64,000 nt of DNA from Glutinoglossum americanum (Eukaryota; Ascomycota; Geoglossomycetes; Geoglossales; Geoglossaceae): positions 229,136 to 293,135 of the forward strand of contig JAGHQL010000004.1 in assembly GCA_020080175.1 (NCBI GenBank). Reading direction: 5' to 3'. The notes below the pieces were generated by a model. The model saw nothing but the letters and a program-made list of their open reading frames with translations, did no database searches and had not been told where the DNA came from. Position 1 is the stretch's first letter. Every line of letters starts with the position of its first letter. Shown here one piece after another: positions 34,483-60,941 of this stretch. The translations under genes were made by a program, and so were the position numbers.

Positions 34483-35854
34483 TCAACATATGAACGTCGA
34501 TTCGTAGAATAGGGTTCCTGCTTCATCCCTGGTCTCCTCCCCTATTTGAACCTTGATAGTGATAGGAACCGACCACTATAGGTAACCCATGTTAGCCACT
34601 ATTAGCTGCTGAAATCGTTAGGATCACGCACCTGATAAATGTAAGGTCTTGTCCCAGCAACTCCTCCAATGATCGACTTCAAAATTGCGGGCACCTCCGC
34701 CATCACATCTACTCGATCCAACCTCTGCCCTAACGGTCCTTCCCAGGATGCAGTAACATCTTTGCCATCTTTATTCTTGCCGGCCCAAAGGAGCCTTAGC
34801 GCGGTGGGAACTGGCCAGGCGACTTCCTCGTCTTCACTAGTCTCCGTGTGGGTAACCAACTGGGGGGAACCAGCTATAATGATTTCGCCATCTATGACCA
34901 AACCACCGACATTCACGTTAGTTTCGCCATATGACGGTGGGGTCACGAAATCCATCATCACGGCAGAGTAGGTTGGAGACTGGAAATTGATAAAGTTCCA
35001 CTTGGCCGCTGTGCTTCTGTCAGATAAATATTGAGGAGGAATTAATGGTACGGGCGCTTATACCGGCATGGTGTGGCTTCATCCCTTGGAGGGCATGCAC
35101 GAAAAGCCCTCTTCCAGTAAAATCTATAGCTCCAGCCTGTGTTACGATTTTCCCAGTAACTTTGTTCCTGGGCCAAAACGCATGCCTCATCCAACCATTA
35201 GGCGCTTCAGGGTCTGTAGCATAGGTACTGGTACCATCTGTACCTGCCACAAAAGCTGGAGCTAGCTTGGTCATTTTGAGATCTACCAAACTGTTGGGAT
35301 TCACGACCGATTTGATAGTAAATTCATTTCCATCTTCGGAAAGGGTGACTGCAACGTCGTCGGCAAAGAATGAGAGCTTCTCATCGTCAAATCCGTAATT
35401 TTCCAGCGGATTCGTGGACCAGAGATGTGGAGTTGTGCCATCTGGGTGAAAAATTTTGGTATTGAACTGGCAGGTTATGCGGACGCCACTAATCCAAGCG
35501 ATTAGCTAGAACTCGATCTCCGATCATGATGTATGACGACCTGTCTCACGCTACATTACTATAGATAACTTGAGCCATGCCAACATGCCCGTTGTCTGCA
35601 ATAAAATAGAAGGTTTGCGTTTCTACATTAGTCCAGCCCATTGTTTTCCATTTTATACCGTCCTTTGATATTTCTGTGTAAGGAGTAGTCTCCGCTTGTT
35701 TCGTGACGGGTTGAATAGCCTCTGGACCGTAGATGGGCTCGGCAGTGCCGGCCACATTGGCAAGTCTGGTAGTGGAAACTATCATTAGCGTATGACATTT
35801 TGTCTATCGAAGCTGAGAAACTATGCCCTACTGTTGCTTGGCCCAGTTGAACAT
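34483..35854 (-). CDS. SVF1: Survival factor 1 (Svf1) homologue
   Basis: Svf1 is a two-lipocalin-domain protein that protects yeast from oxidative stress and has been linked to sphingolipid (ceramide) transfer. Exons are 35854-35832, 35765-35550, 35488-35064, 35008-34632 and 34575-34483, giving 377 residues, the family's usual length. The start [21 protein letters not shown] matches the family. Further signatures are [63 protein letters not shown] and [12 protein letters not shown]. The first exon is 23 bases. There is no signal peptide; an amphipathic N-terminus is typical. The gene is divergent from the WDR48 homologue. Confidence 0.94.
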
Positions 35855-36337: not shown

Positions 36338-39300
36338 ATGGCTCGCAAGGCCCGTCAGCGGATAAGCTACGGTTTGTTCTCTACCCAACTGAGTGTAACC
36401 TCGACAGAACTGATATCTCACGGGTGATACTTTGTAGTCTTACCTCTCGCGAACTCTCCAGGCGGCCATAGATTAGGGGTCAATGGGCTCGCTGTTGATG
36501 GTGACCAGTCGGTGCTGTACGCTCATTGTCGATCATCCTCACTGCTGGACCAAAGCTAATGGATATGTTGCAGATACTCCGGCGGCAGAGATGGTGTCAT
36601 TTGCTCGTGGGACCTAGAGCTCGATCTCAACCAAAGCTCTACTGATGCACCTGCAAAAAGTTCTTCCAGCTCGACTAGTGACCCGCCGACTGGTTCGAGT
36701 ACCAAAGCTGCCACAACTTTCCGTTCGCAAGTGCAAGCCCACACCCATTGGGTCAACGACATCACCCTTACCCAGAACAACTCAGCTTTGGTTTCATGCT
36801 CGTCTGACCTCACCGTAAAGGTGTGGCGTCCGCATGCAGAAGAAGGCCATGCACCACACACAATTGGCCTTCACAGTGACTACGTCAAGTGTCTCGCAAC
36901 CCCAAATGCGCAATCGGATTGGGTCGCATCTGGTGGCTTCGACCGCAAAATATACCTGTGGGATCTAAATAGAGGAGGTGAAATACTCCAAATTAATGTT
37001 GGGGACGAGGGAAATGACAAAGGCTCTATCTACGCACTTGGGCTCAGGGGAGGCATTCTTGCAAGTGGAGGTCCGGAAAGTGTGGTGCGCCTTTGGGACC
37101 CCAGAACTGGCAAACGCATCACCAAGTTTGTAGGCCACACAGACAACATCCGTGCCATCCTGATAAACAGAACCGGAGACACGATTATGACGGCATCATC
37201 CGACACAACAGTAAAAGTATGGTCTGTAACGGGTGGTAGATGCATGCATACCTTGAGCATGCATAACGATAGTGTGTGGTCCCTCTATTCAGATCATCCC
37301 GGTTTATCAGTTTTTTATTCTAGTGACCGGTCTGGACTGGTGGCTAAAACCGACGTTCGCGGTACCACTGACATGGATGAGGGTATCTGTGTCGCTGTAT
37401 GTCAGGAGCATGAGGGAGTTAGCAAAATCATTAACCACGGTCGCTATATCTGGACGGCTACATCAAGTTCTAGCATAAATCGGTGGCTAGATGTTGATAT
37501 GGAAACGCATAAGCAGACCCCAGAGTGGTCGCGTCACCACCGAGCAAGTAGCAGCGCTGCGTCACGACAGAAGTTACCACCGTCTCCCCACTCCACGAGC
37601 TTTCCTATGGCAAATAGTGACTGCAAAAAGCAGATTCCGATGAGCGCAATCTTACGTCTCTCTAATACCTCGGCATTCCCAGCAACCAACGTCCGGGATC
37701 CAGATGCCGTTACTGTATATTCGATGAAATCGCTGCGGGAACCTTCAGAAGTCATCATAGATAACGATGTTGGTGTTGCAGTACCCGTCCACAGCCTACC
37801 GGATGAATCAATCGAGGGCCAGAACGGATTGATAAAACATATTATGCTGAACGACCGAAGGAGAGTGCTCACCTTAGATACAGCTGGGGAGGTGGTGATG
37901 TGGGATATACTCAAAGTTGAGGCTCCTTCTTCCAGACCTATGCTCTCATATTTACCCGCCACGTAGTGCGTTCCTGTGCAGTCATACGGAAAATACCACT
38001 TGGAGGATATTGAACCAACGGTAAACACACCGGAAAGTGTTGCCAATTGGTGCACTGTCGACACCAGGACTGGAAGGCTGGCTTGCGTGCTCGAGGAAAA
38101 TTACTCTTTTGACGCTGAAACATATGCCGATGAGCTGGACTTAGAAGAGACGATAGACTTCAGGGAAGATCAGCGAAGTAGGCGCGCCCCCTTACTGCTA
38201 ACGAGATCTCTTTGCACATAAATTGCTTTACCCTGGAATGCTGATATTCGCGCGTCTGCCACGTTAGTAAATCACGGGAAATGGGTACTACGGTATCTAT
38301 TCTCAAACTTGATTGATGAAGAGATAAGACGTGATAATATATACAGAAAGAGTCTCTTGGAGAATCTAGATCAGAGGGAGAGGTCCCAACGATCTAACAC
38401 ACCTCTCTCAATACAGTTGCCTTCATCGACATGGCAAGACCCTTCAGTACGTCCCGGGTCGCCCATGACGCCCAGAGTGGTCAATGGTCACAACTACCCC
38501 CCTGTCACACCTGGCATGGCGATTGGAGTAGCAACACCAGGTGCAGCCCCCCCCGCACAACCTACCCAGTTGGATGGTCATCTCCCTCCGACAGCAGAAG
38601 AAGAGCCAGAAGGCGACAAACACTCTTCATCACATAGCCAACCTAGGTCATCAGGTGATTACTTTTCGAGTGGCCCTGCTCCTAGTTCGCTGGCGCCTTC
38701 CTCAGCAGGATATTTGAAAACCCCTGCGATGCCTGGAGAAGCTCATGACGATAAGCCCCCACAGTCGCCGTCAGATGCTGATAAAGAAAATCACAGCAAG
38801 GAAGGCAGCTCTTTATTTGGGAAAAAATTCCGGGTTTCATTTGGTGGGAAAAAGCTGGGTCGATCTTCTGTGGATACGAAGCAGCCAGTAGTGGTAGACG
38901 AGAAAGCTGAGGATTCCGATGAATCAAAATCCATGGAGAATAAAGCCGATCATGTCCAAGACAACCTCCTAGGGGTTATTGAGAAGATTAGACATGGCTA
39001 CGATGCACAGATACAGGATAATCTAGGCCAAGATATTGTCACCGCTATATCACCCAGTATGCCGAATGAGACGCCTGTCCTGAAGCCGCCTCCAAATACT
39101 ACTGTCATCATCCAAGAAGATCGTCCTGATTCTGGCGGAGTAGCCGATCTTTATAGGGGCACTGTGGGCTCTCTACACGAAGATGCTGATCTGCTTGAAA
39201 TGGTAGTCCCAACGTGGCTTGGGGATCTTCTCCTATTGGCGAGTCAGGCCCTTCCCCCTTGTCTCAGGCGGAGAAATGCTGACAGGCAGCAGAACCAAAT

Positions 39301-39824
39301 TCCGTTCAAGGAGACAGTAAAGGTTTCATTCGTCCTTCAGCCGTGGGGTGATCTTCTTCCTAGTATCGCCAATAGCGATGGGTTAGACGACATGCAATGA
39401 AAACCATAGCCACAGGGCGTAATCTGCTGACATTGAACAACAGAAACTCCCGCTTGAATGCCAATCGCATGCTACGCTCTAAGAAAGTTCTTTCTTATGT
39501 CGCCGAAAGGATAGAGGCGCAGCCTGAGAAACCAGATCCCAACGCACTAAAACCAGAGGAGTATCTCGAGTTGCATTGCCAGAATCAGGTTCGTAGCCAC
39601 ATAGCCTGACACGCAACAACTCAACTAATACTGCATGGTTATCCCAGGTTGTTCCCCCGACTATGACTCTTGCCACACTCCGTGCCCACGTATGGAAATC
39701 CGGCACCGACGTCCTCCTGTATTACAAGAGCAACGGCAGAAAGAAGATCCTTGGAGAGAAAACTCCGGAACAAGTCCTTGAAGAAAGGGAGAGGGCAGCT
39801 GACGTGGAAGAAGAGGACGAATGA
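36338..39824 (+). CDS. WDR48/UAF1-type WD40 protein
   Basis: WDR48 (UAF1; Bun107 in fission yeast) is a WD40 scaffold that activates ubiquitin-specific proteases of the USP1/USP12/USP46 type. Exons are 36338-36371, 36438-36516, 36574-37915, 37967-38177, 38268-39381, 39444-39588 and 39648-39824. The frame closes and the product is 1033 residues. The N-terminus [17 protein letters not shown] and the first repeat [14 protein letters not shown] match the family. Six to eight WD repeats follow ([55 protein letters not shown]). The C-terminal family domain has [20 protein letters not shown] and a ubiquitin-like end with [20 protein letters not shown] and [16 protein letters not shown] segment at about 39238-39290 may be an unrecognised in-frame intron. 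Confidence 0.92.
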
Positions 39825-43584: not shown

Positions 43585-44452
43585 ATGGCGACACCTGGAA
43601 AAACCACTAGGTCTAGTCAGCCTGGTTCGTCCCGTCAAACACTTAGCGGCAAGGGACTGCGAACCGGTGCTGGTGGCAAAGGACTGGGCAAGGGCCTCGG
43701 GAAGGGCCTTGGAAAAGGCATTGGCCATCGTCGTCACCGGTAAGTCGGTCCTAGTTTAGTCGAGCAACACTATTGCTGACCGAGCATTCGCTACAGAAAG
43801 CTCGTGAAAGATACAATTCGCGGAATCAGTAAGTGTTCTGAGCTCTGGGAAGCTTGAACCAAGCGCTAATCCGTGTTCCTAGCCAAGGGTGACATTCGGT
43901 AATATTGCCTGCCTATCCGCACGTCCCAAGACTAAAATTGGATGCTAATGAATCATTGACTTACTCGACCAGTCGTCTGGCGCGTCGCGGTGGCGTCAAA
44001 CGTATCTCCGCTCCCATTTATGAAGACCTGCGTGCTGCGTTGTCCCAACATCTTAGAGAGGTATAAACCCTGATGTTGGCCATGCTTGCTAGGGCTTAGT
44101 ACTGATGGTACCTCTAGATCCTTAAAGACTGTGCCATCTTCCTAGACCACTCCAATCGAAAGACTATCACTGTTACAGATGTGGGTACTGCGTGCCATTG
44201 ATGAAGGTCCTCGTTTTTATTAACTCTTGACAGGTAATCTTTGCCCTCAAACGGGTAGGTTTATCGCTGTTCATCCAAGCTCTACTGCATCCTACTAACG
44301 CGATTCCTGGAACCTATTCAGCGTGGTCGACCGCTGTACGGTACGTATTGTGTCGACCGCTCGCCAGCTAAATGGCTAAACAAAGGATAATGAAACTAAC
44401 TTTCACAGGATTCGACAAAGACACCTATACTGAGAAGCGCAGGCGTCGCTAA
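43585..44452 (+). CDS. Divergent histone H4 variant
   Basis: A core-histone H4 fold with major changes. Eight exons (43585-43739, 43797-43828, 43883-43898, 43973-44060, 44118-44180, 44234-44254, 44322-44340, 44409-44452) join in frame to give 145 residues; canonical H4 has about 103. The fold keeps RRLARRGGVKRIS, the IYE helix start, NRKTITVTDV and ALKR-GR-LYGF. The tail has a 33-residue N-terminal extension and then repeats Gly-Lys-Gly-Leu four times (residues 35-46). The position of Lys16 is Arg49 (HRRHRK instead of AKRHRK), while Lys20 is kept as Lys53. Canonical Lys59 and Lys77 become Ser and Asn. The C-terminus adds DKDTYTEKRRRR after LYGF. Diverged H4 variants are known in some filamentous fungi; function is unknown. 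The open, well-spliced frame argues against a pseudogene. An in-frame upstream ATG at 43495 exists but is less likely. Confidence 0.9.
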
Positions 44453-44860: not shown

Positions 44861-45858
44861 CTACCCCTTAGAAGACATCCCACTGCTCACCAAAGCTCTA
44901 ATGAGATTCATAGTCACCGACTGCCCATGCTGCACAGCCTCAGGCCCCAAACCCTCCCCGGGGACGTGCAAGAAAAGCACGGGCCTCTCCCCCTCGCCGT
45001 TCCCGCCGCCCTTCTCCCAGAAGTGGGCCAGAGAGCAGTAGTAGATGAAATCGCACAGGTAGTGCCCTGCGTCGTCGGAGACGCGGAGATCGACGCCCTA
45101 TTTTGCAGGAAAAGGGGGGAAGGCGGGCACGTCGTCAGCACTAGTTTTTTTGAAATTTGAAAAAAAAAAAAAAAAAAGGAAAAAAAGGAAAAAGCGTTAT
45201 ATGATGAGTGTGTTTTTTTTCTTGGGGGGGGTATGCGCTGCACGCATACGTGCAAAGCAGGGCACGTCCATCCCTCCGGCGGCGACTTACAGGACTCAAC
45301 CCCCTCCACCGCTCCAGGACCCCGTCGACATCCACCGTCGTCCGCAGCACCTCGGGCCACGGCTCCCCCCGCGCGTCCCCCACCACCACCCCGTCGACGT
45401 CCCGGCCCTCGTAGCCCGCCCTGTGCGCCTGCCGCTCCACGGCGAAGTGCTTCCACAGCGGCGCCACGCCGCAGTGGATGACGTAGGAGACGTCGCGGTG
45501 GGCGGAGAGGAGCGGCGGTATCTGGGAGAGGGTGGCCGGGTAGGAGACCGGGAGGGGCTGCGCGGGGCGGAGGAGGCGGATCTTGGGCGTCGTTGGGGTG
45601 CGGGGGATCGCTGGGGGGAGGGAGGAGACTATTTCCCAGGAGGGGTTGGTGGGGATGTCTCCGAAGGGCTACTCCTTTTGGGGATGGGCGGTTAGTTGGA
45701 GTGGTTTTTTCGGTATTATATTGTATTATTTTATCTTATTTTATTCTCTCGGGGGGCAGGGAGAGAGGGTGGAGGGTTTGGCATACCCCGAAGCCCGTCA
45801 GGAGGATTGTGATCTCCTTTTCTTCTCCTCCTTCCGTGGTGAATGCTGGGGGGGGCAT
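44861..45858 (-). CDS. Pyroglutamyl peptidase I (peptidase C15)
   Basis: Cytosolic cysteine peptidase that removes N-terminal pyroglutamate from peptides. Exons 45858-45787, 45668-45291 and 45097-44861 all join in phase 0, giving 228 residues, close to the family's usual 210-260. The N-terminus reads ITILLTGFG/PFGDIPTNPSWEI across the first splice, the C15 signature. The catalytic Glu is in FAVERQAHR, the Cys in AGHYLCDFIYY, and the His in VLFLHVP. All three are present, so the enzyme should be active. The coding part is unusually GC-rich, with codons mostly ending in C or G. The 193-nt second intron instead carries A and T homopolymers on the plus strand (near 45161-45177 and 45215-45222). 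Confidence 0.92.
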
Positions 45859-46518: not shown

Positions 46519-47714
46519 CTAGGCCAACTTCCCTGGGACAACGGGATGACCAGAGCTCAACCCACCACATACGGCAATCGCTTGACCATTGACGTAGCTG
46601 GACTCATCGCTGCCCAGAAACAGCGCCATTCGCGCCACTTCGTCAGGCTGTGCGCCTCGCCTCGCGGGGTTCAGTTGGCCGACTTTGCCCTCGGAGCCTC
46701 GGGCACGAGCAATTTCGTATATGGATGTGGTCATTCCGGTCTCGATGAGGCCGGGGCAGATGGCATTGCAGCGAATGTTGGTTCCTGTGAGTTGCCACGC
46801 GCATGTTTGCATTATGGAAATAACCGCTGCCTTTGATGCAGAGTAGTCGGCTGTTGGGAGATTTGTCAACTCTAGCTCAATAGTAAGGGGTGGGCGAAAT
46901 CGGGGAGGAATAATCTTAGTATCTTACTTGAACCAGCGTTGGATCGGAGACCAGCCACAGATGCAGTTCCTATAATGGAACCTCCAGATGAGAGTTTACC
47001 TTTATTTGTTTTCATCATTGCAGGAGCGGCATACTTTGCTGCTAGGAAGACGCTATGAACGATGAGTGTTCGTCTCTGTACGCACAAAGCCGCGAGGGTA
47101 AACCACATACCTCAAGACATTAGTTTTCATTGTGTGCATGAAGTTCTCACCCGTGACCTTTGCGAAGATTGCATTCTGCCCGATAATCCCGGCATTTGCA
47201 AAAAAGACATCCAACCTCCCGTATTTCTCGATGGCCTCGTCCACCACCGCCTTCACTGCGGACTCGTCCGACGCATCGAATTTCCGCGGAAGAGCGTCCA
47301 CCGAGGGGTATAGCGACTTTAGCTCACGCTCATGTGCTGCAAGGTGAGTGTCACTGTAATCGCAGAGGAAGACCGCGCGGGCACCATTTCGGGCGAACTG
47401 GTGAGCTGAAGCACGCCCAATGCCGGTTGGAGAGTTCGCCCCTAGAGAGTCGGGTTACTTGGGCGCGCGTGTGGCATAAACTTAGGAAAAGAAATGGTCT
47501 ACCGGTTACGATTACGACTTTCCCTTGTACTCTCCTGAGGAGATAGAGGGCTTAGTAAGATTGTTATAACGAAGGTCGTAAGGTTGGCTTACGGTCCTAC
47601 AGAGTCTTGTGCTACCTCCTTGATCTTAGGAAGTTCTTCAAACGGTGCAACTTCGTTTGGAGACCTTAGGTGCTGGGTGACCTGTTCGAGACGTTGTTTT
47701 GGCACGGAACCCAT
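46519..47714 (-). CDS. Short-chain dehydrogenase/reductase (classical SDR)
   Basis: NAD(P)-dependent oxidoreductase of unknown substrate. Exons 47714-47593, 47534-47503, 47441-47111, 47052-46928 and 46871-46519 join in frame, giving 320 residues. The Rossmann motif [14 protein letters not shown] has a longer glycine loop than usual. The NAG motif (FANAG), [11 protein letters not shown] with the catalytic Ser region, and the catalytic YSASK are all present. So is the downstream [13 protein letters not shown] 50-residue N-terminal lead precedes the fold ([20 protein letters not shown]), found in a fungal subset of SDRs. Exon 2 is only 32 bases. Neighbours do not suggest a pathway. Confidence 0.88.
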
Positions 47715-48591: not shown

Positions 48592-51500
48592 ATGGAGGCA
48601 ACTGGCGGTGGGCCCCTTGAGAGAAAAACTTCTCAAAATTCGTCCAGATCTGGTCATTCTGGCACCGTGCGAGCTAAATCTAGGAGGATTAACACAAATT
48701 CGTCCGTAACGTCTTCAGCACCATCCGACAAGTCTCTTATTTCCTTCCCTTCTCTCTCACCTGCATCTTCTCCAATTTCCTCCCGGCATGACGCGCTGAA
48801 TCATATCCTGTCTTCTCATCCTACCTCTCCATCGCCGGCGCCGCGAAGATCACCCTCTCCGCCGTCGATTGTTGATAGTCTCACGGCGTCGTCGCCTAGC
48901 CAGAAAGTACGAGCTTCGCTGTTCGACGATGCGCCTATGAACAGCCACCACGTTCCTGGCGCCATACACCATGCTAGTGACGAACACATTGAGCGCTTGC
49001 TGGCTCGCACTGGCGCTGTCGCGCTGGTGCGCCAGCTTGCAGAGGACCTGGCCCAGCGGGATGCTCAGATGGTTGCTCGTAGGCGCAGAGCGGAGGATCG
49101 GGAGAGGTTGCTGAAGAAAATGTTATTGGATTGTCAGGTATCGAGCCTTGACATCGAGACTCGCCTACGGAGCCTTGAGGACCCAGGCTCTGGGTTTCGT
49201 GCGGGTGGTAACGTCAAGGATTTAGCAAGGGATAATGGAAGAAAGAGTGAGGGGTCCGACACGAAGGGTGTGAAGATCGACATCAATGAGATGGTAAACC
49301 AGGCTATGAGAGATACGGTGGGATCGGAGGACGAACACGGGGATGATGGCTATCTGGGAGTGGGTACCGCTGATGGCCAGGATCTACATGCTACCATCAG
49401 ACCTGGTAGGAATTTCACACCTTTGGATGATGAGGCAAGGTCGACTGATTCCGGTGGGAACGCCGATAGAAGGTGGAAAGGTACTGTGAGGGGCTGGAAG
49501 GAGTACCTGTGGGGTAGGGCAACAACAAGGAGCGTAAGTGGGGGTAGCAGTATTGCGAGCGACGCAAACGATGACGTAGAAGTGCTTCCGAGATTAAGGG
49601 CTGCCAGTGGGCCCGGACCTAGGAAAGCACTGAAGAATGATCTTTTCCAGCCGCCGGATTACGTGTCGAATGGCAACGGCAGCCGATCCGCGAGCGGACA
49701 GACACTTGCATTGCTGCAGGACGGTGACAACTCAGATTCTCACTCTCAGAAGTCTTCGGCCTCGGTTGCGTCTTGGGCGGTGAAACTGGTTGCGGGGACG
49801 TCACAGATCAACCGTGATGGGGATGGTCAAAGGGCTGTAAGGGGACGAACCACGATGGTGGGAAACGGGCCGCTTAAAGATCCGGAGACGGCGTCTTTAG
49901 CGTCTACAAAGACGTCTAAATCGGTCGTGGCAGGCACAACCAAGCCGGGCAGCGAATCCGTCTCTGGTCATGGAGCTCGCCGCTCTGCTGCATCATTGAG
50001 CGTGGGCTCCTCGCAGCCTACGGTGCGTAGGGCAAACAGTTCTGGACCTGTTGAGATGGACACCATTCTGCCTCCTGGCTCCCGCCCTCCTACATTATCG
50101 CAAACGTACAACGATTACCATCCAACTGATTTCCTAACCGACCGGTTTGGTTTCATCTACGATCAGCGAAGGAGGAAACAACAGAAGGAAGCTTCAGACC
50201 GTGCGCAGGGCCTAGTGCTTGGCGGTGGCAAGGTGGAGATGTTAGCTGGCGTTCTAAGCGATGGCGATGATGATGGTTCGCTGGCTTCACCGGAGTCTAC
50301 GTCGAGGCCGGACACTCCAGGTTCTACGGAGGACCAGGGCCCCAAGACCGCAAAAAGATGGCAGGACTTCCTTAAGATCGCTACTTCTCCTACGGAACTA
50401 CTTTCGGACACACCTTCTCCTGGCGCGCTGTTAACTCCGGAACAAGACAACGGCGAGCCGCCTAAGCCCTCCCAAATCACGATAGCATCGCGTGGCTCTC
50501 TTCCCCCCGCGAGCTCTACTCCCCAGCCATTGGCATCGCCGGTTGTCTCTGGAAACGCTACGTTGGCAAAACCATTAGTTTCGTCTGGGGCATCAACCCC
50601 TGCAAATGCCGCCAAGGACCAAAATGAACCGGTAAAGCTCCTGCTTGAGCAACTCACCGAGCTACATGACTCCCTCCAGCGTGACAAGACGGTTAGGTGG
50701 AATGAGTTTCTACGCAAAGTCCGCGCCGAGCGCCGCAGGGAAATGGAGGCGGCGGCTGTTGCAACAAACGAAGGCCGGCCCGGGCTAACGTCGATGCCGG
50801 AAGTCTCTCTTGCGGACGGCGAGATAATCGGAGTCGCTGGATTAGGAAACAAAGGCAAAGTCGGAAGGGCGAAGTGGAAAGAATTTAAGCAGCTTGTTCT
50901 AGGGGGCATACCCGTTGCTCATAGGGCGAAAGTTTGGGCGGAGTGCAGCGGGGCGTCGGCTCTTCGGGTGCCGGGATATTACGACGACCTCGTCAACAAT
51001 GGCGCCGAAGACCCCCTGGTGGTGGCTCAGATCGCGATGGATATCAACAGGACCCTGACCGACAATATTTTCTTCCGCAAAGGACCTGGCGTTGCGAAGC
51101 TGGAAGAGGTTCTACTCACTTATTCGCGCCGTAACCCTGATATCGGATACTGCCAGGGGATGAATTTAATCGCAGCCTCTCTTCTTCTAATCATGCCCAC
51201 GGCTGAAGACGCATTCTGGGTCATGACAAGCATGATCGAAAATATCCTTCCGCCAAACTACTACGACCATTCATTACTTGGTAGCCGCGCCGACCAGCAA
51301 GTTCTCCGCCAATATGTCAGCGAGATCCTTCCCAAACTGTCAGCTCACCTCGACGACTTGGGGATCGAGCTTGAGGCGCTGACTTTTCAATGGTTCCTTT
51401 CCGTCTTCACCGACTGCCTGTCCGCCGAAGCGCTCTTTCGAGTCTGGGACGTGGTGCTCTGCACGAATGATGGGTCTACATTTCTGTTCCAGCTTGCGCT

Positions 51501-51918
51501 TGCACTTCTTAAATTGAACGAGAAGCAGCTGCTTAAGTGCAGCACTCCCGCCGGCATCTACAGTTACATTAACCATCATATGACCAACCATGCTATCAGC
51601 ATCGATGGCCTGATTCAAGCGAGTGAGGCGTTGAAGAAGGTTATCCGGAGGGAGGAGATTGAGGAAAGGAGAAAACGAGCGTTGGAGATAGAGATGGAGG
51701 CCGTGAGGTTGAGAAACAAGAGGATGATCGAGAGAGAGGGTGAGAGGAACAAGCATCGGGACGAGCAACGGGCAGAGGATATGGGGGGTGGTGGAGAGCA
51801 GCAGCAGGGCGACGTCTCGGATGGGAAGGGCTTGGGTGAGTTGCAGCTGCAACCTCCTGTGCCGGTCGAGGAGGAGGAGATGGTGGTTGGAGATGCAAAG
51901 GAGAGTTTCGTCCCCTGA
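48592..51918 (+). CDS. TBC-domain Rab GTPase-activating protein
   Basis: Predicted GAP for a Ypt/Rab GTPase in vesicle traffic. The gene is a single open frame of 1108 codons, unusual beside its intron-rich neighbours. Residues 1 to about 690 are Ser/Thr/Pro/Gly-rich and largely disordered, with a short helical segment near 140-185 (RLLARTGAVALVRQLAEDLAQ). The TBC domain spans about residues 760-990. It begins with WKEFKQLVLGGIPVAHRAKVW. It has the arginine finger IAMDINRT and the glutamine finger IGYCQGMN, so the dual-finger mechanism is intact. FQWFLSVFTDCL and RVWDVVL are further TBC motifs. A highly charged helix (RREEIEERRKRALEIEMEA) follows and suggests a coiled coil. The target Rab cannot be read from the sequence. 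Confidence 0.92.
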   Translation: MEATGGGPLERKTSQNSSRSGHSGTVRAKSRRINTNSSVTSSAPSDKSLISFPSLSPASSPISSRHDALNHILSSHPTSPSPAPRRSPSPPSIVDSLTASSPSQKVRASLFDDAPMNSHHVPGAIHHASDEHIERLLARTGAVALVRQLAEDLAQRDAQMVARRRRAEDRERLLKKMLLDCQVSSLDIETRLRSLEDPGSGFRAGGNVKDLARDNGRKSEGSDTKGVKIDINEMVNQAMRDTVGSEDEHGDDGYLGVGTADGQDLHATIRPGRNFTPLDDEARSTDSGGNADRRWKGTVRGWKEYLWGRATTRSVSGGSSIASDANDDVEVLPRLRAASGPGPRKALKNDLFQPPDYVSNGNGSRSASGQTLALLQDGDNSDSHSQKSSASVASWAVKLVAGTSQINRDGDGQRAVRGRTTMVGNGPLKDPETASLASTKTSKSVVAGTTKPGSESVSGHGARRSAASLSVGSSQPTVRRANSSGPVEMDTILPPGSRPPTLSQTYNDYHPTDFLTDRFGFIYDQRRRKQQKEASDRAQGLVLGGGKVEMLAGVLSDGDDDGSLASPESTSRPDTPGSTEDQGPKTAKRWQDFLKIATSPTELLSDTPSPGALLTPEQDNGEPPKPSQITIASRGSLPPASSTPQPLASPVVSGNATLAKPLVSSGASTPANAAKDQNEPVKLLLEQLTELHDSLQRDKTVRWNEFLRKVRAERRREMEAAAVATNEGRPGLTSMPEVSLADGEIIGVAGLGNKGKVGRAKWKEFKQLVLGGIPVAHRAKVWAECSGASALRVPGYYDDLVNNGAEDPLVVAQIAMDINRTLTDNIFFRKGPGVAKLEEVLLTYSRRNPDIGYCQGMNLIAASLLLIMPTAEDAFWVMTSMIENILPPNYYDHSLLGSRADQQVLRQYVSEILPKLSAHLDDLGIELEALTFQWFLSVFTDCLSAEALFRVWDVVLCTNDGSTFLFQLALALLKLNEKQLLKCSTPAGIYSYINHHMTNHAISIDGLIQASEALKKVIRREEIEERRKRALEIEMEAVRLRNKRMIEREGERNKHRDEQRAEDMGGGGEQQQGDVSDGKGLGELQLQPPVPVEEEEMVVGDAKESFVP

Positions 51919-55266: not shown

Positions 55267-58200
55267 ATGGCCAGCTCACCCCCTGGCTCACCTCCTGGTG
55301 GTCCGCAACGGCCGATGAGCGCGATGTTTCGCCCGCCGAGGAGCTCCAGCCGAATGAGCACGAGTAGCAAGATAGGCGGCGGAAGCAGAGCGTCCGATGA
55401 GGATGGAAAGACGTCCGTGAAAGTTGGTTCGTACACATATCTCGTTGCACGTTTGAATTTTTTGAATTTTTTTTTTATAAAAAAAAAAAAAAAAAAAAAG
55501 GAAAAAAACAAAAAAGGTTCAGACTCGCCGGATCAAGTCGCTGACATGACCGCTCGTTCGCCATTTTTAGCTGTTCGTGTGCGCCCTCCACTCAAACCTA
55601 CAGATCCGGGCTTTGACCTTATCCCACAACGTTTCCAACGGTCGATGGTCCAAGTGACGTCGCCTACTAGCCTTGCCGTAGATTCTCCCCAGGGCAGAAA
55701 GCTGTTTGTCTTTGATAGAGTCTTTGGAGAGGAGGTTGGCCAGGAGGGCGTCTGGGGCTACCTGAACGAGAGCGTTACCGCGTTCACTCAAGGGTACAAT
55801 GTCTCGTTGTTGGCGTATGGCCAATCTGGCGCCGGAAAGTCGTATACCATGGGAACCTCGGGTCCGGCCGAGCAGAATGACGCCAAGGTTATGGGTAAGT
55901 GGTCTGTGGATGCCGGTTCTAGGTTGCGTGCTGATGACCCTACGATCCCAGGCGTCATCCCTCGTGCTGCAGCTGCACTCTTTGAGAAACTCGGTTCCCA
56001 TCATCGTCACACCGGTTCTGGGCTCAGAACACCCATTCGCTATTCCACCAGTTCCGCACAGGTGCTCTCGAAACCATCGGAGAAGAACTGGTCGATGAAA
56101 GCTACCTATGTCGAGGTAGGAGTCGTCTGAATTCAGTCGTATCGAACGCCGGGTTTCTGACATAGTCTTAGATTTACAATGAGCAGCTGCGAGATTTGCT
56201 TCTGCCGGAGTCTGTCCCGCAAGGCGAGAGAGGCAACGTCACCATACGTGAAGACGCCAAGGGCCGGATCCTCCTGACTGGCTTGCATCAGGTCACCATC
56301 AACTCGATCGATGATCTACTTGGTGCTCTTAACTTTGGCTCTTCTATCCGCCAGACTGATGCTACGGCTATCAATGCCAAGTCCTCCCGTTCTCACGCCG
56401 TCTTCAGCCTAAATCTGATCCAGCGTAAACGTGGGACGAGTTCCGGGATGACTGCGCAGGAGAAACGATTCTCCGTACCTACCGAACTCTTGACCGGCGC
56501 CGAGGGGTTCATTACGGTGGATAGTAAATTTCATTTTGTCGACCTCGCTGGCAGTGAGAGATTGAAGGTGAGCGTGCCGATGGGTACGGGCGTGCGTGAA
56601 CATTCTGACGGTTGTCATTAGAATACCGGGGCACAGGGAGAGCGCGCTAAAGAGGGTATTTCCATCAACGCCGGTCTTGCGAGCTTGGGGAAGGTCATAT
56701 CTCAGCTCTCTTCTCGTCAAGCTGGTTCGCATGTCTCGTACCGAGACTCCAAGCTCACCCGTCTTCTCCAAGACTCCCTTGGCGGCAATGCAATTACCTA
56801 CATGATCGCTTGCGTCACTCCTGCGGAGTTCCATCTCAGCGAGACTCTCAACACGGTGCAAGTAAGTTTAAGTATCCTACCGCTCGCCTTTTGACCTTTC
56901 TGATGCGTTTCCAGTATGCACAACGAGCTCGTGCCATTCAGAGCAAGCCACGCATCCAGCAAGTGTCTGACGACGGTGACAAACAAGCCCTTATCGAACG
57001 TCTCCGTGCTGAAGTTGCTTTTCTCCGTGAGCAGATCCGCAACTCCGATCGGGGAGATCGACGGAGCAACGTGCCGCAAGAGCGCGCGGAACGAGCGAAT
57101 GATCGGGAGAATGAGCTACAGAACCAACTCCTCGACATTCAGGAGAATTATACTGCGCTCAGCCAGCGTCACGCTAAGCTTATCTCCGAGATTACTAAGG
57201 CCGGTAGGGAGGATGCTCAGCCTGGACCTGATTACGAAGGCGCTCTTGGCGATACTGCGGTCGAGAGACTGAAACGCTCAAATTCTTTTGCGGAGGCTGT
57301 GGAGCAGGTTGTCCTGGAATATGAAAAGACCATCCAGACCCTCGAGAGCTCTCTCTCGAGTACCCGGTCCTCTTTGTCTACGTCGGAAAGCATCCTGCTG
57401 GAGAAGGAAACGAAGCTGGCGTACATAGAGACGGTCAACCAACAACTTCAAACTCGCCTGCAGAAGATGATGGATCGGGAATCGAGTACTGAGAATTATC
57501 TTCATGATCTCGAGGCGAAGCTAGATGGCCACACTTCGGGAGAGGAGAAGAATTCAGCTATCGTCGTGGAACTGCGTAAAGAAATCGCGCGGGTTCGAGA
57601 GAATGAGGCTAGCTGTGAAGATTACATATCAACGCTTGAGGAGCGGCTAGCGGAAGCCGATCAAGATGTCGAGCTCATGCAGCGCGAAATAGATCGTTTG
57701 GAACATGTGGTTGAACGCCAGCGGAGTCTTGGAAAACTCGACAACCTCCTTTACGAACTTGACCACATCCAGCAGGATGGGAGGAAGACGAATGGAGAGG
57801 AAGTATTGGTCAACGGGGAGCCAAGCGGTGATCACCAAGTTAATGCCGATGACCACGTCGTCGAGGCGCCGCCTAGCTCACTGGATGGAGGAGATCCAGC
57901 CATATCAGAGCAAGGCGAGCGTCCCCCCAGTATTCACTCGGACCAAGGGATTACCGAGCAAGTTGATGAGACCGAAGCTGCGCAGCAGGGATCGCTGGAA
58001 TCGAGTCCCAGCGATCTTGACTACCCTCCACAGAGCCCAGCTCAATCAAAATTCGTTGCCGACAAGTTGGAAAACGTCACTCAGGAGTTGTTCGACCTCC
58101 GTATGGAGCACGAGTCGACTCTCAATGAGTTTGACCTCCTCTCTGCGAAATATGAGGAAGCCCTACGAACTCTAGGCGAGCTTCAGGATGTTGTCGATGA

Positions 58201-60941
58201 ATCTCGACATACATCTACCATTCGTGACTCTGTTAGCCCGCCACCATCTGCTGGGCCGTCTCATTTTTTAGGCGATGGCAGGGTCAGCGAGCTCAAGGGT
58301 GGGGAAACTGGGTCATCCTCGCGGTCGCTATTGTCGGAATTGTCCTTGGCTGGGGAATCCCCTATTACGGCTGAGACTTCTGAGGTCGAGACGCCCGCGG
58401 AGGTTGCTGAACCTGTGGAGGCTCTTGAGGGTTCGCATAAGGAGACGTTGTCCATCCTCGAGCTAGAAACCATCAAGCAATCCAATGCCGAGAAGGAAGA
58501 AGACCTCAAGGCTCTAGCCCAGCAGTATGAGCAGCTACAGGAGGAACATCAGGAGACGCTCGATGTGGTTGAGGAGCTCAAGGCGGAAGTCCAAAAGGCC
58601 AAGATGAGTGGTCAGGCCGTTCCTGCCCAGCCTATAATCCGCCGCAAGTCAAGCCAGAACGTCATGATCATCGACCGGGCACACAGATCGTTCGCATCTC
58701 TTCGAAACATCGCTGCGGAGAACCTTGAGGACAGGCCGGACGTGATACAGAACTTCGAGCTAAACTTGAACACCGCCATGCACGAGCTGCATACGCGTTC
58801 GGAGCGTATTCAAGAGCTTGAAGCTGACATCGCCAGCGTCAAGAAAGAGATGGAGTCCAAGATGACCATCATTTCTGGGCTTACGAGGGAACGGTCGAGC
58901 ATCAAGAACTCTTCGCCGATGGACATTACAGTTGTCTCCTCCATGCGCGATCAATTGTTACAGAGTGAAAATCAGATTAGAGTGCTTCAGGGCGCGCATG
59001 CTAATCGTGAGGAGGAGCTTCTATCGGAGATTCAAGCTCTGAACGCGGCTCTCGAAGCTCAAATCGAAAAGTCACAACTGGGTATCGAGGAATTGAATGA
59101 GCAACACCGTGAACGCGACGAGTTGCGAGAAAAGACTATCTTTGATCTTCAGGAGGAGCTTGCCCAGTTACGTGATGAACATAAATCTGCTGTGGATTCG
59201 ATGAAGGCTTCTGAGAAGGTGTTGGTGGACCACAACAGCGAGCTGAAAGCTGCTATAGGCCAACTGGAGGCCCTCGGTGTAGAGCGTATTGCCGGGGTCG
59301 AGGCTCAGGAGGCGAAGCCGGAAGCGGATTTTGAGGGTGAAAGATCGAAGCACCGAGGGATTGTTGACAGTCTTCAGAAGGAGATTGGAGAACACAAGGC
59401 CACCATCGAGTCTCATGTTGCAGAGTTAGAGAGCGAGAGATTGAAACATAAAGAGATGGTGAATCATCTTCAGAGGGAGATCGACGAACATAAGGCCGTC
59501 GTTGACTCTCACGCTGGCTGCATCGAGGAGCTGGAGGAGTCTCATGCTGGTGCCCTTGGGCAGTTGGCCGAGATCACTGCTTCTAGAACGGTCACGGAGT
59601 CTGACCTACAGGCTCACCGTGATCTTGTGTCTTCTCTGCAGCAACAGATTGTGGAGCATCAGAGGGCGATTCTAGATCAAGAGGAGAGTGTCCAAGCCCT
59701 CCAAGATTCGCACGCCTATCAGCTGGAGGAGGTTAAGGAGGACGCTTGGAATTCCGCTCGGGCTGATGCCGAGTCTCGACTGGCCGACCAGACCGCGAAA
59801 CACGAAGCTGCAATCAATGCTCTTCATGCCGAAATCCAGGAGAACAAGGACGTGATGGAAACACTACTCCAGCGGTTCAAGAAGCTCGAAGTGTCGTTCC
59901 ACGAACAGTCGACGGTTGTAGACAACTTGCAAGACCAGCTAAAGGCAAAGAGCGAGGAAGTCGTGGCGTCCGAAGCCATCGGTGCAGCCCTACAGACTGA
60001 GGTGGGTGTCGTCCACGCCGAAGCTGAGAAACACCTCGACACCATCAGTGAACTGAAGCGGCTTCACGAGGAATCTCTTGCTGAGATTGAAAAACTGGAC
60101 AAGAAGAACCAGAAGAATTCGCGTCTCGTCGAAGAGCTTGAGCAGGAGCTTTCTTCCACTTTCGACCGGCACCAGGCCGCAACTAATAGGTTGTCTTCCC
60201 TTCAGACGGAGCGCAATGCAATACTCGAGGATGCGAGGGAAACGACAAGACAGGCTCAGGCCGAAGCGGAAGCGCTCCGAGAACAAGTCTCTGCGCTTGA
60301 GGTAAGATTCTCTTTTGCGGCGCCCATTGACGTATGTTAACTAGAAACAGGCGAGACTTGCGGAGTTTCAGCCCAGTACCCCCACCCAAGACCGTGCTCA
60401 ACGGTCCAACTCAACCAGTTCGAATCTGCGCAAGAGCGCCTCAACGGCGTCTCTGCCCTCACCGCCCCCAGCGATTCCTCTTCCGCCTCTACCGAACAGC
60501 ATCCCTCATCTCCCTGCTCTCAATGTGGCTGCGGCCAATAGCGCTCCGGCCCCGCCCACCCCGACGATGTCCCGGCGTCCAAGCAAGGACCTTGCCAATT
60601 CCCAGCTTGCTGAAGACCAGGAGGCTCGCATAAGGACTATTGAGAAGCATCTCTTCGCTGAGAAGCAACTCACCGCAACCCTTGAAGAGGCTCTTACTGA
60701 TCTTGAGAAGCAAGGGAAGAAGGTAGAAGAGGATCTGAAGGAGTGGAAGAAGAAGTGTTGGTCTCTAGAGGATGAGATGGAACGTGTAAAGACCCAGTCC
60801 AGCGCTAGCCGCTATTCTATGCAAGCAGTTGAAGAGGAGCGCAACGCCCGCAGGGAGGCCGAGGCGGCTCGTGCTCAACTTGAGGAGAGGATGAACGCGA
60901 TCAACAAGAGGAAGAAGGGCCGCAGTCTTGCTTGCTTCTAA
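55267..60941 (+). CDS. N-terminal-motor kinesin with long coiled-coil tail
   Basis: Microtubule motor, probably plus-end directed. Seven exons (55267-55426, 55571-55894, 55952-56115, 56172-56567, 56622-56861, 56915-60301, 60351-60941) join in frame, giving 1753 residues. After a Ser/Pro-rich lead of about 50 residues comes the motor: AVRVRPP, P-loop [14 protein letters not shown], switch [13 protein letters not shown], switch [12 protein letters not shown] and [16 protein letters not shown]. The neck-like segment [12 protein letters not shown] leads into over 1200 residues of heptad-rich coiled coil. That is broken by an acidic, Ser-rich patch near residues 700-850. Near the C-terminus is a Pro-rich linker ([14 protein letters not shown]). 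The protein ends in a basic stretch and Cys-Phe ([11 protein letters not shown]). The layout (motor first, very long coiled coil) recalls kinesin-4/KIF21 types, but the subfamily is not certain. Confidence 0.92.

Follow-up and report, generated by a model that had tools for sequence, protein, structure and literature searches.

The 64,000-nucleotide stretch of Glutinoglossum americanum DNA analysed here (hereafter the window) contains a gene that, once spliced, reads as a variant of histone H4, raising the question of whether this variant is specific to one fungus or belongs to a known family, and of what its altered residues would do. The original prediction had described a variant of H4 whose tails are rewritten and in which an arginine takes the place of Lys16. 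That description stands, but the gene fits a family already published, the “enigmatic” H4 variant H4E (hH4v), as described in the parts of PMC10878826 drawn on here. We consider it very likely from the sequence comparisons below that the locus is the G. americanum orthologue of ascomycete H4E (Aspergillus nidulans hheA, Neurospora crassa hH4v). This assignment draws on the structure of the gene, the sequence of its domain and synteny rather than on a tree with other fungal H4E proteins; a stable H4 tree was not obtained in PMC10878826 either, according to the parts used.

The gene occupies positions 43585–44452 of the forward strand, and its predicted coding sequence of 438 nt, in eight exons, encodes 145 amino acids. 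The proposed reading frame with seven splices proved to be present and intact: there are no internal stops or frameshifts after splicing, and all seven introns (53–74 nt long) are bounded by GT and AG. Exon 1 (43585–43739, +, 155 nt) carries the start codon, with A at −3 and G at +4, and the extended N-terminal tail, MATPGK...GKGLGKGLGKGLGKGIGHRRHR, before a phase-2 donor. The end of the basic patch and the start of the fold, including K53 (the K20 equivalent), lie in exon 2 (43797–43828, +, 32 nt, phase-1 donor), followed by the short exon 3 (43883–43898, +, 16 nt, phase-2 donor). Exon 4 (43973–44060, +, 88 nt, phase-0 donor) encodes RLARRGGVKRISAPIYEDLRAALSQHLRE and is recovered by the fungus’s own canonical H4 in a six-frame search of the unspliced genome (61% identity, E = 1.5e-4). 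Exon 5 (44118–44180, +, 63 nt, phase-0 donor) contains the replacement of K77 by Asn and the conserved K79, and lacks the insertion of 5–16 amino acids found in Eurotiomycetes. Exons 6 (44234–44254, +, 21 nt, phase-0 donor) and 7 (44322–44340, +, 19 nt, phase-1 donor) lead to exon 8 (44409–44452, +, 44 nt), which encodes the LYGF end, the tail DKDTYTEKRRRR and a TAA stop. The intron phases are thus, in order, 2, 1, 2, 0, 0, 0 and 1. Retention of any single intron would introduce a premature stop for introns 1–5 (five of the seven) or an altered C-terminus for introns 6 and 7; a CTRAY branch-point-like site is present in six introns, intron 5 having YTNAY matches only. The H4 fold core is kept at the level of sequence, as had been claimed: in addition to the recovery of exon 4, the spliced protein has 97 distinct sequence matches among solved structures (E ≤ 0.001), the best at E = 7.3e-33.

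The published gene model provides a test of identity. In the portions of PMC10878826 used here, H4E is reported throughout Pezizomycotina with some losses, and also in basal Taphrinomycotina and in Glomeromycota; the family is characterised by seven introns, long tails and lost modification sites, with Arg or a non-polar residue at the K16 position in many members. Outside Eurotiomycetes, the 5′ part of the model runs from a phase-2 intron through 29–32 nt, a phase-1 intron, 16 nt and a phase-2 intron to 88 nt, and the 3′ part has a 63-nt exon between phase-0 introns, with a 21-nt exon given in the figure legend; early-diverging classes and Lecanoromycetes have a phase-1 intron 19 nt past the last phase-0 intron (PMC10878826, same portions), and exon 7 of the G. 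americanum gene is this 19-nt exon. When the main-text statements on the 63-nt and 19-nt exons are combined with the 21 nt of the legend, the model agrees with our gene in six of six internal exon sizes and seven of seven phases. The series of 60, 18 and 21 nt in the legend of figure 1 of that source, all phase 0 (i4–i7), does not fit the G. americanum gene, and we read it as the Aspergillus arrangement. Neither the insertion nor the intron characteristic of Eurotiomycetes is present. Exon borders had been set before the comparison with the published model, and lengths and phases were tabulated afterwards; a chance exon chain was rejected, since independently set borders agree with the published sizes and phases (PMC10878826, in the parts cited).

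The protein also shows the H4E traits of a longer N-terminal tail (by 32 residues), a longer C-terminal tail (by 10), a changed distribution of Lys and Arg in the tails, and Arg at position 16. The statement that divergent H4 variants are known in some fungi is likewise supported by the publication of H4E (PMC10878826, in part). The variant, its K16 change and its gene structure are already in print, and their discovery here adds little. Searches of collections of genome contigs (395 stretches matched) and viral contigs (22) confirmed no relatives of the variant, and a lack of bacterial, archaeal or viral-collection relatives is as expected for an intron-rich fungal gene.

Gene order offers a further line of evidence. 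In Eurotiomycetes and Dothideomycetes the order is nudA–hheA–svf1 (PMC10878826, from the parts used). In G. americanum an Svf1-family gene (PF08622) lies at 35086–35626 of the window on the reverse strand (C252:264221-264761), about 8 kb from the H4 variant; it comprises two above-cut-off stretches in one place, the sole such place found in the genome. The sole genome match to a dynein heavy chain (DHC_N2) shares this 293-kb contig with the variant and lies some 125 kb from it. Under random positions, Svf1 would fall within 8.5 kb with a chance of about 0.00066, and dynein on the same contig with a chance of about 0.011. Linkage is thus seen but direct adjacency is not kept, at least three genes (including those for a WD40/DUF3337 protein, a mitochondrial carrier and a PP-loop ATPase) standing between Svf1 and the variant; synteny with svf1 and dynein is loosened in this fungus. 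The intron pattern, taken with this looser synteny, would be in keeping with a Lecanoromycete or a similar host.

The surroundings of the gene can be described briefly. The PP-loop ATPase gene (PF01171, 41837–43258, +), which we take to be tRNA-lysidine-synthase-like, runs in the same direction, with its stop codon some 327 bases ahead of the variant’s start codon; the promoter of H4E is therefore likely to be short. Further upstream, WD40 repeats are followed by DUF3337 at 36731–39400 (+), presumably a WDR48-like arrangement. Downstream of the variant are low-complexity runs at 45145–45232 (T, a long A-rich run, then T and G), and two open-reading-frame pieces at 46522–47454 (−) match short-chain dehydrogenase/reductase (PF13561, PF00106) and are possibly one intron-bearing gene. 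Beyond these lie a TBC RabGAP frame (48592–51918, +), a kinesin motor frame (55267–56130, +) and an open frame of 1176 amino acids (56810–60340, +) with no Pfam match at E ≤ 0.001.

We next consider the residues themselves, compared with the fungus’s own canonical H4A in an alignment anchored on RHRK and gapless to LYGF. Identity over K20–F100 is 46 of 81 positions (56.8%). The predicted changes at individual lysines hold in this alignment: the Lys16 equivalent is Arg (R49), Lys20 is kept (K53), and Lys59 and Lys77 are replaced (K59 by S92, K77 by N110). The broader claim that most sites used for H4 signalling are altered was overstated, since the span K16–K91 has eight lysines, of which three are replaced and five (K20, K31, K44, K79 and K91) are kept. 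None of K5, K8 and K12 can be matched to a single residue, their stretch being filled by Lys–Gly units, and other modifiable residues are changed, for example Y72 to F, Y88 to F, T71 to I and T73 to L. The basic patch reads RRHRKLVK, and its six basic positions (16–20 and 23) stay basic. All four of the canonical DNA contacts R36, I46, K79 and T80, as listed in the parts of PMC10878826 used, are kept.

The tails also depart from those of canonical H4. The N-terminal tail is indeed longer than canonical, by 32 residues rather than the 33 first proposed, when K20 serves as the anchor (residue 53 in the variant, 21 in canonical H4, Met included). Four 12-nt units at 43675–43722 (+) encode residues 31–46; the count of four had been predicted correctly, but the units are not all Gly-Lys-Gly-Leu, being three GKGL and one GKGI. 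Since canonical H4 already contains GKGLGKG, about two units are extra in the variant. A hand count found 5 of the 12 nucleotide columns varying among the units, four of them third codon positions, and the sole amino-acid change is Leu to Ile; because the differences fall almost only at third codon positions, the repeat would seem to be old and under selection at the protein level, as this small sample of four units suggests. The ladder lysines are residues 32, 36, 40 and 44, spaced by four. Across the 49 residues before RHRK there are six Lys and four Arg and no acidic residue. At the other end, the basic 12-residue tail after LYGF was found as described, with a net charge of +3, and makes the C-terminal tail 10 residues longer than canonical. 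PMC10878826 calls it striking how few Lys and Arg the terminal tails contain (2 Lys and 2 Arg in A. nidulans), which does not hold for the G. americanum gene; the same source, in the parts used, notes sequence variation among H4E tails, and we do not take this scarcity as a defining trait of H4E. Because the G. americanum tail is Lys-rich and that of A. nidulans Lys-poor, function may differ between members of the family.

The ladder bears on how the protein might be acetylated. The HAT1 consensus GxGKxG (PMC10092946, from the part of that paper used) occurs twice in H4A and not at all in the variant, since each ladder lysine is followed, two positions on, by Leu or Ile. Moreover, with ladder lysines four apart, the three-residue K5–K8 spacing is absent from the variant. 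The K5–K8 pair is read by BET bromodomains. If the consensus holds in fungi, the variant would be a poor Hat1 substrate. The apparent particulars of the Glutinoglossum member, as judged from its predicted protein, are a regular lysine ladder together with the lack of a HAT1 consensus.

What the family does is best approached from A. nidulans. There, H4E is nuclear and pairs with H3 by bimolecular fluorescence complementation (BiFC); expression of hheA is good during nitrogen starvation at 37 °C and low in mycelia, and the protein level is low. Deletion of hheA or its alcA-driven overexpression gave no phenotype, placing it under the canonical H4 promoter gave a mild growth change only, and H4E did not replace canonical H4.1 (PMC10878826, in the parts cited). 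These functional results argue against a large effect of H4E in A. nidulans, and the absence of a published phenotype is no positive support for the chromatin-compaction mechanism put forward in the original prediction, in which loss of an acetylatable Lys16 would permanently mimic the unacetylated charge. In the open-licence literature we found no functional study of H4E beyond PMC10878826, and in the parts consulted the family’s function is still unassigned, as is that of hH4v (PMC10878826, PMC6703697).

The likeliest mechanism, which we regard as possible rather than probable and draw by analogy with A. nidulans, is that H4E would act at low abundance as a replacement for canonical H4 in some nucleosomes, non-acetylatable at K16 and dispensable in the laboratory. 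H4E would pair with H3, as BiFC shows for the A. nidulans protein, and would take the place of canonical H4 in a minor fraction of nucleosomes, chiefly when conditions such as starvation prevail. The patch RRHRKLVK would keep the charge that binds the neighbouring acidic patch, with position 16 no longer acetylatable, and the N-terminal ladder without a HAT1 consensus would let H4E bypass the usual Hat1-dependent acetylation on its way into chromatin. The outcome, as we envision it, would be a small number of nucleosomes that do not respond to K16 acetylation and are dispensable under laboratory conditions. An extension of this idea, which we think unlikely, is that the H4E tail was rebuilt in this lineage into a regular lysine ladder, with Arg at position 16, such that H4E would wholly escape both the deposition acetylation by Hat1 and K16 acetylation and would mark a small class of nucleosomes with deposition and reading factors of its own.

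A different role, which we regard as quite improbable, would be that of a DNA-condensing histone, with the ladder and the RRRR of the C-terminal tail forming a small protamine-like clamp when cells are dormant or starved. The composition of the tails is consistent with this, with ten Lys or Arg and no acidic residue before RHRK and the net charge of the C-terminal tail, as is the rise in hheA expression that A. nidulans shows on nitrogen starvation at 37 °C. However, in that species no fluorescence was reported in conidiophores or ascospores, and conidial viability and survival of UV and H2O2 were normal without the gene (PMC10878826, in the parts used). As the A. nidulans tail is Lys-poor, only members like that of G. 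americanum could fit.

It is very unlikely that the locus is instead a recent or decaying, functionless H4 paralogue specific to this fungus. The identity of only 56.8% to the fungus’s own canonical H4 would be in keeping with decay, as would the lack of a deletion phenotype for the A. nidulans orthologue and the loss of the family in several lineages, such as Penicillium (PMC10878826, in part). Set against these, the frame is intact across eight exons and seven GT–AG introns, the gene structure fits that published for the subphylum (same parts of PMC10878826), and the tail repeats, small sample as they are, differ almost only at third codon positions. Decay of the gene, which the original prediction had raised, found no support in the single genome examined.

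Profile searches give a less clear picture of identity. The variant passes the TAF model of Pfam only (28.2 bits, cut-off 21), which is also its best hit, and falls below the cut-offs of CENP-T_C (26.7 of 28.1 bits) and Histone (24.4 of 26.4). Canonical H4A passes CENP-T_C (34.4, its best) and TAF (23.5) and also falls below Histone (25.2 of 26.4), and Pfam models do not cleanly separate H4 variants. CENP-T and TAF are encoded by genes of their own, on contigs C190 (112 bits, PF15511) and C285 (90 bits, PF02969) respectively, and a PF15511 search of the genome did not list the variant at E ≤ 0.001; a CENP-T or TAF identity was rejected, given these far better matches elsewhere. That the gene encodes some other histone-fold protein, of CENP-T, TAF6 or CENP-S type, has a very small chance, for although TAF is the sole model passed and the best hit, and CENP-T_C is the best even for H4A, canonical H4A itself passes both models and misses Histone, the genome holds separate CENP-T and TAF genes, RRLARRGGVKRIS, RHRK and LYGF are common to the variant and its own canonical H4, and the 60 matches listed of the 97 solved structures are all named histone H4. 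With the variant, read as H4E, as query, a search of the genome returned seven matches: three belong to this gene itself, another three are spread over the two canonical H4 genes, and a single weak match (E = 0.016) is to the TAF gene; H4E is single copy in the G. americanum genome.

The locus is therefore best read as a new H4E member with a tail more Lys-rich than the A. nidulans example. H4E has been kept across most of a subphylum without an assigned function (PMC10878826, as far as the parts used go), and a member with a lysine ladder and no HAT1 site yields a clear prediction, namely that it would be neither a Hat1 substrate nor sensitive to K16 acetylation. This biochemical prediction could help to find the function of H4E.

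Two known systems frame this reading. The canonical H4 of G. americanum, encoded by two genes (H4A, L003 on contig C39, and H4B, L004 on C24), shares with the variant the H4 fold, K20, K31, K44, K79 and K91, the charges of the basic patch and LYGF, and differs in having K16, K59 and K77, short tails, HAT1 consensus sites and other intron positions. H4A has exons of 10, 138, 138 and 26 nt with introns all in phase 1, after G2, A48 and G94; H4B has a first exon of 10 nt and its second intron placed as in H4A, and a comparison by hand found no intron position common to the variant and either canonical gene. The A. nidulans H4E (hheA, AN12228) likewise has seven introns, longer divergent tails, a conserved fold, a basic patch with a changed K16 position and lost modification sites, and the svf1-family and dynein heavy-chain genes adjacent to it are linked to the variant in G. 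americanum; hH4v of N. crassa is named as an H4E orthologue in the same source. Compared with hheA, the G. americanum gene is without the TIPSS-type insertion and the Eurotiomycete-specific intron, has a 19-nt exon and a last intron in phase 1, and carries an N-terminal extension of 32 residues, Lys-rich, against 5, Lys-poor, and a C-terminal extension of 10 residues against 7 (PMC10878826, in the parts used here).
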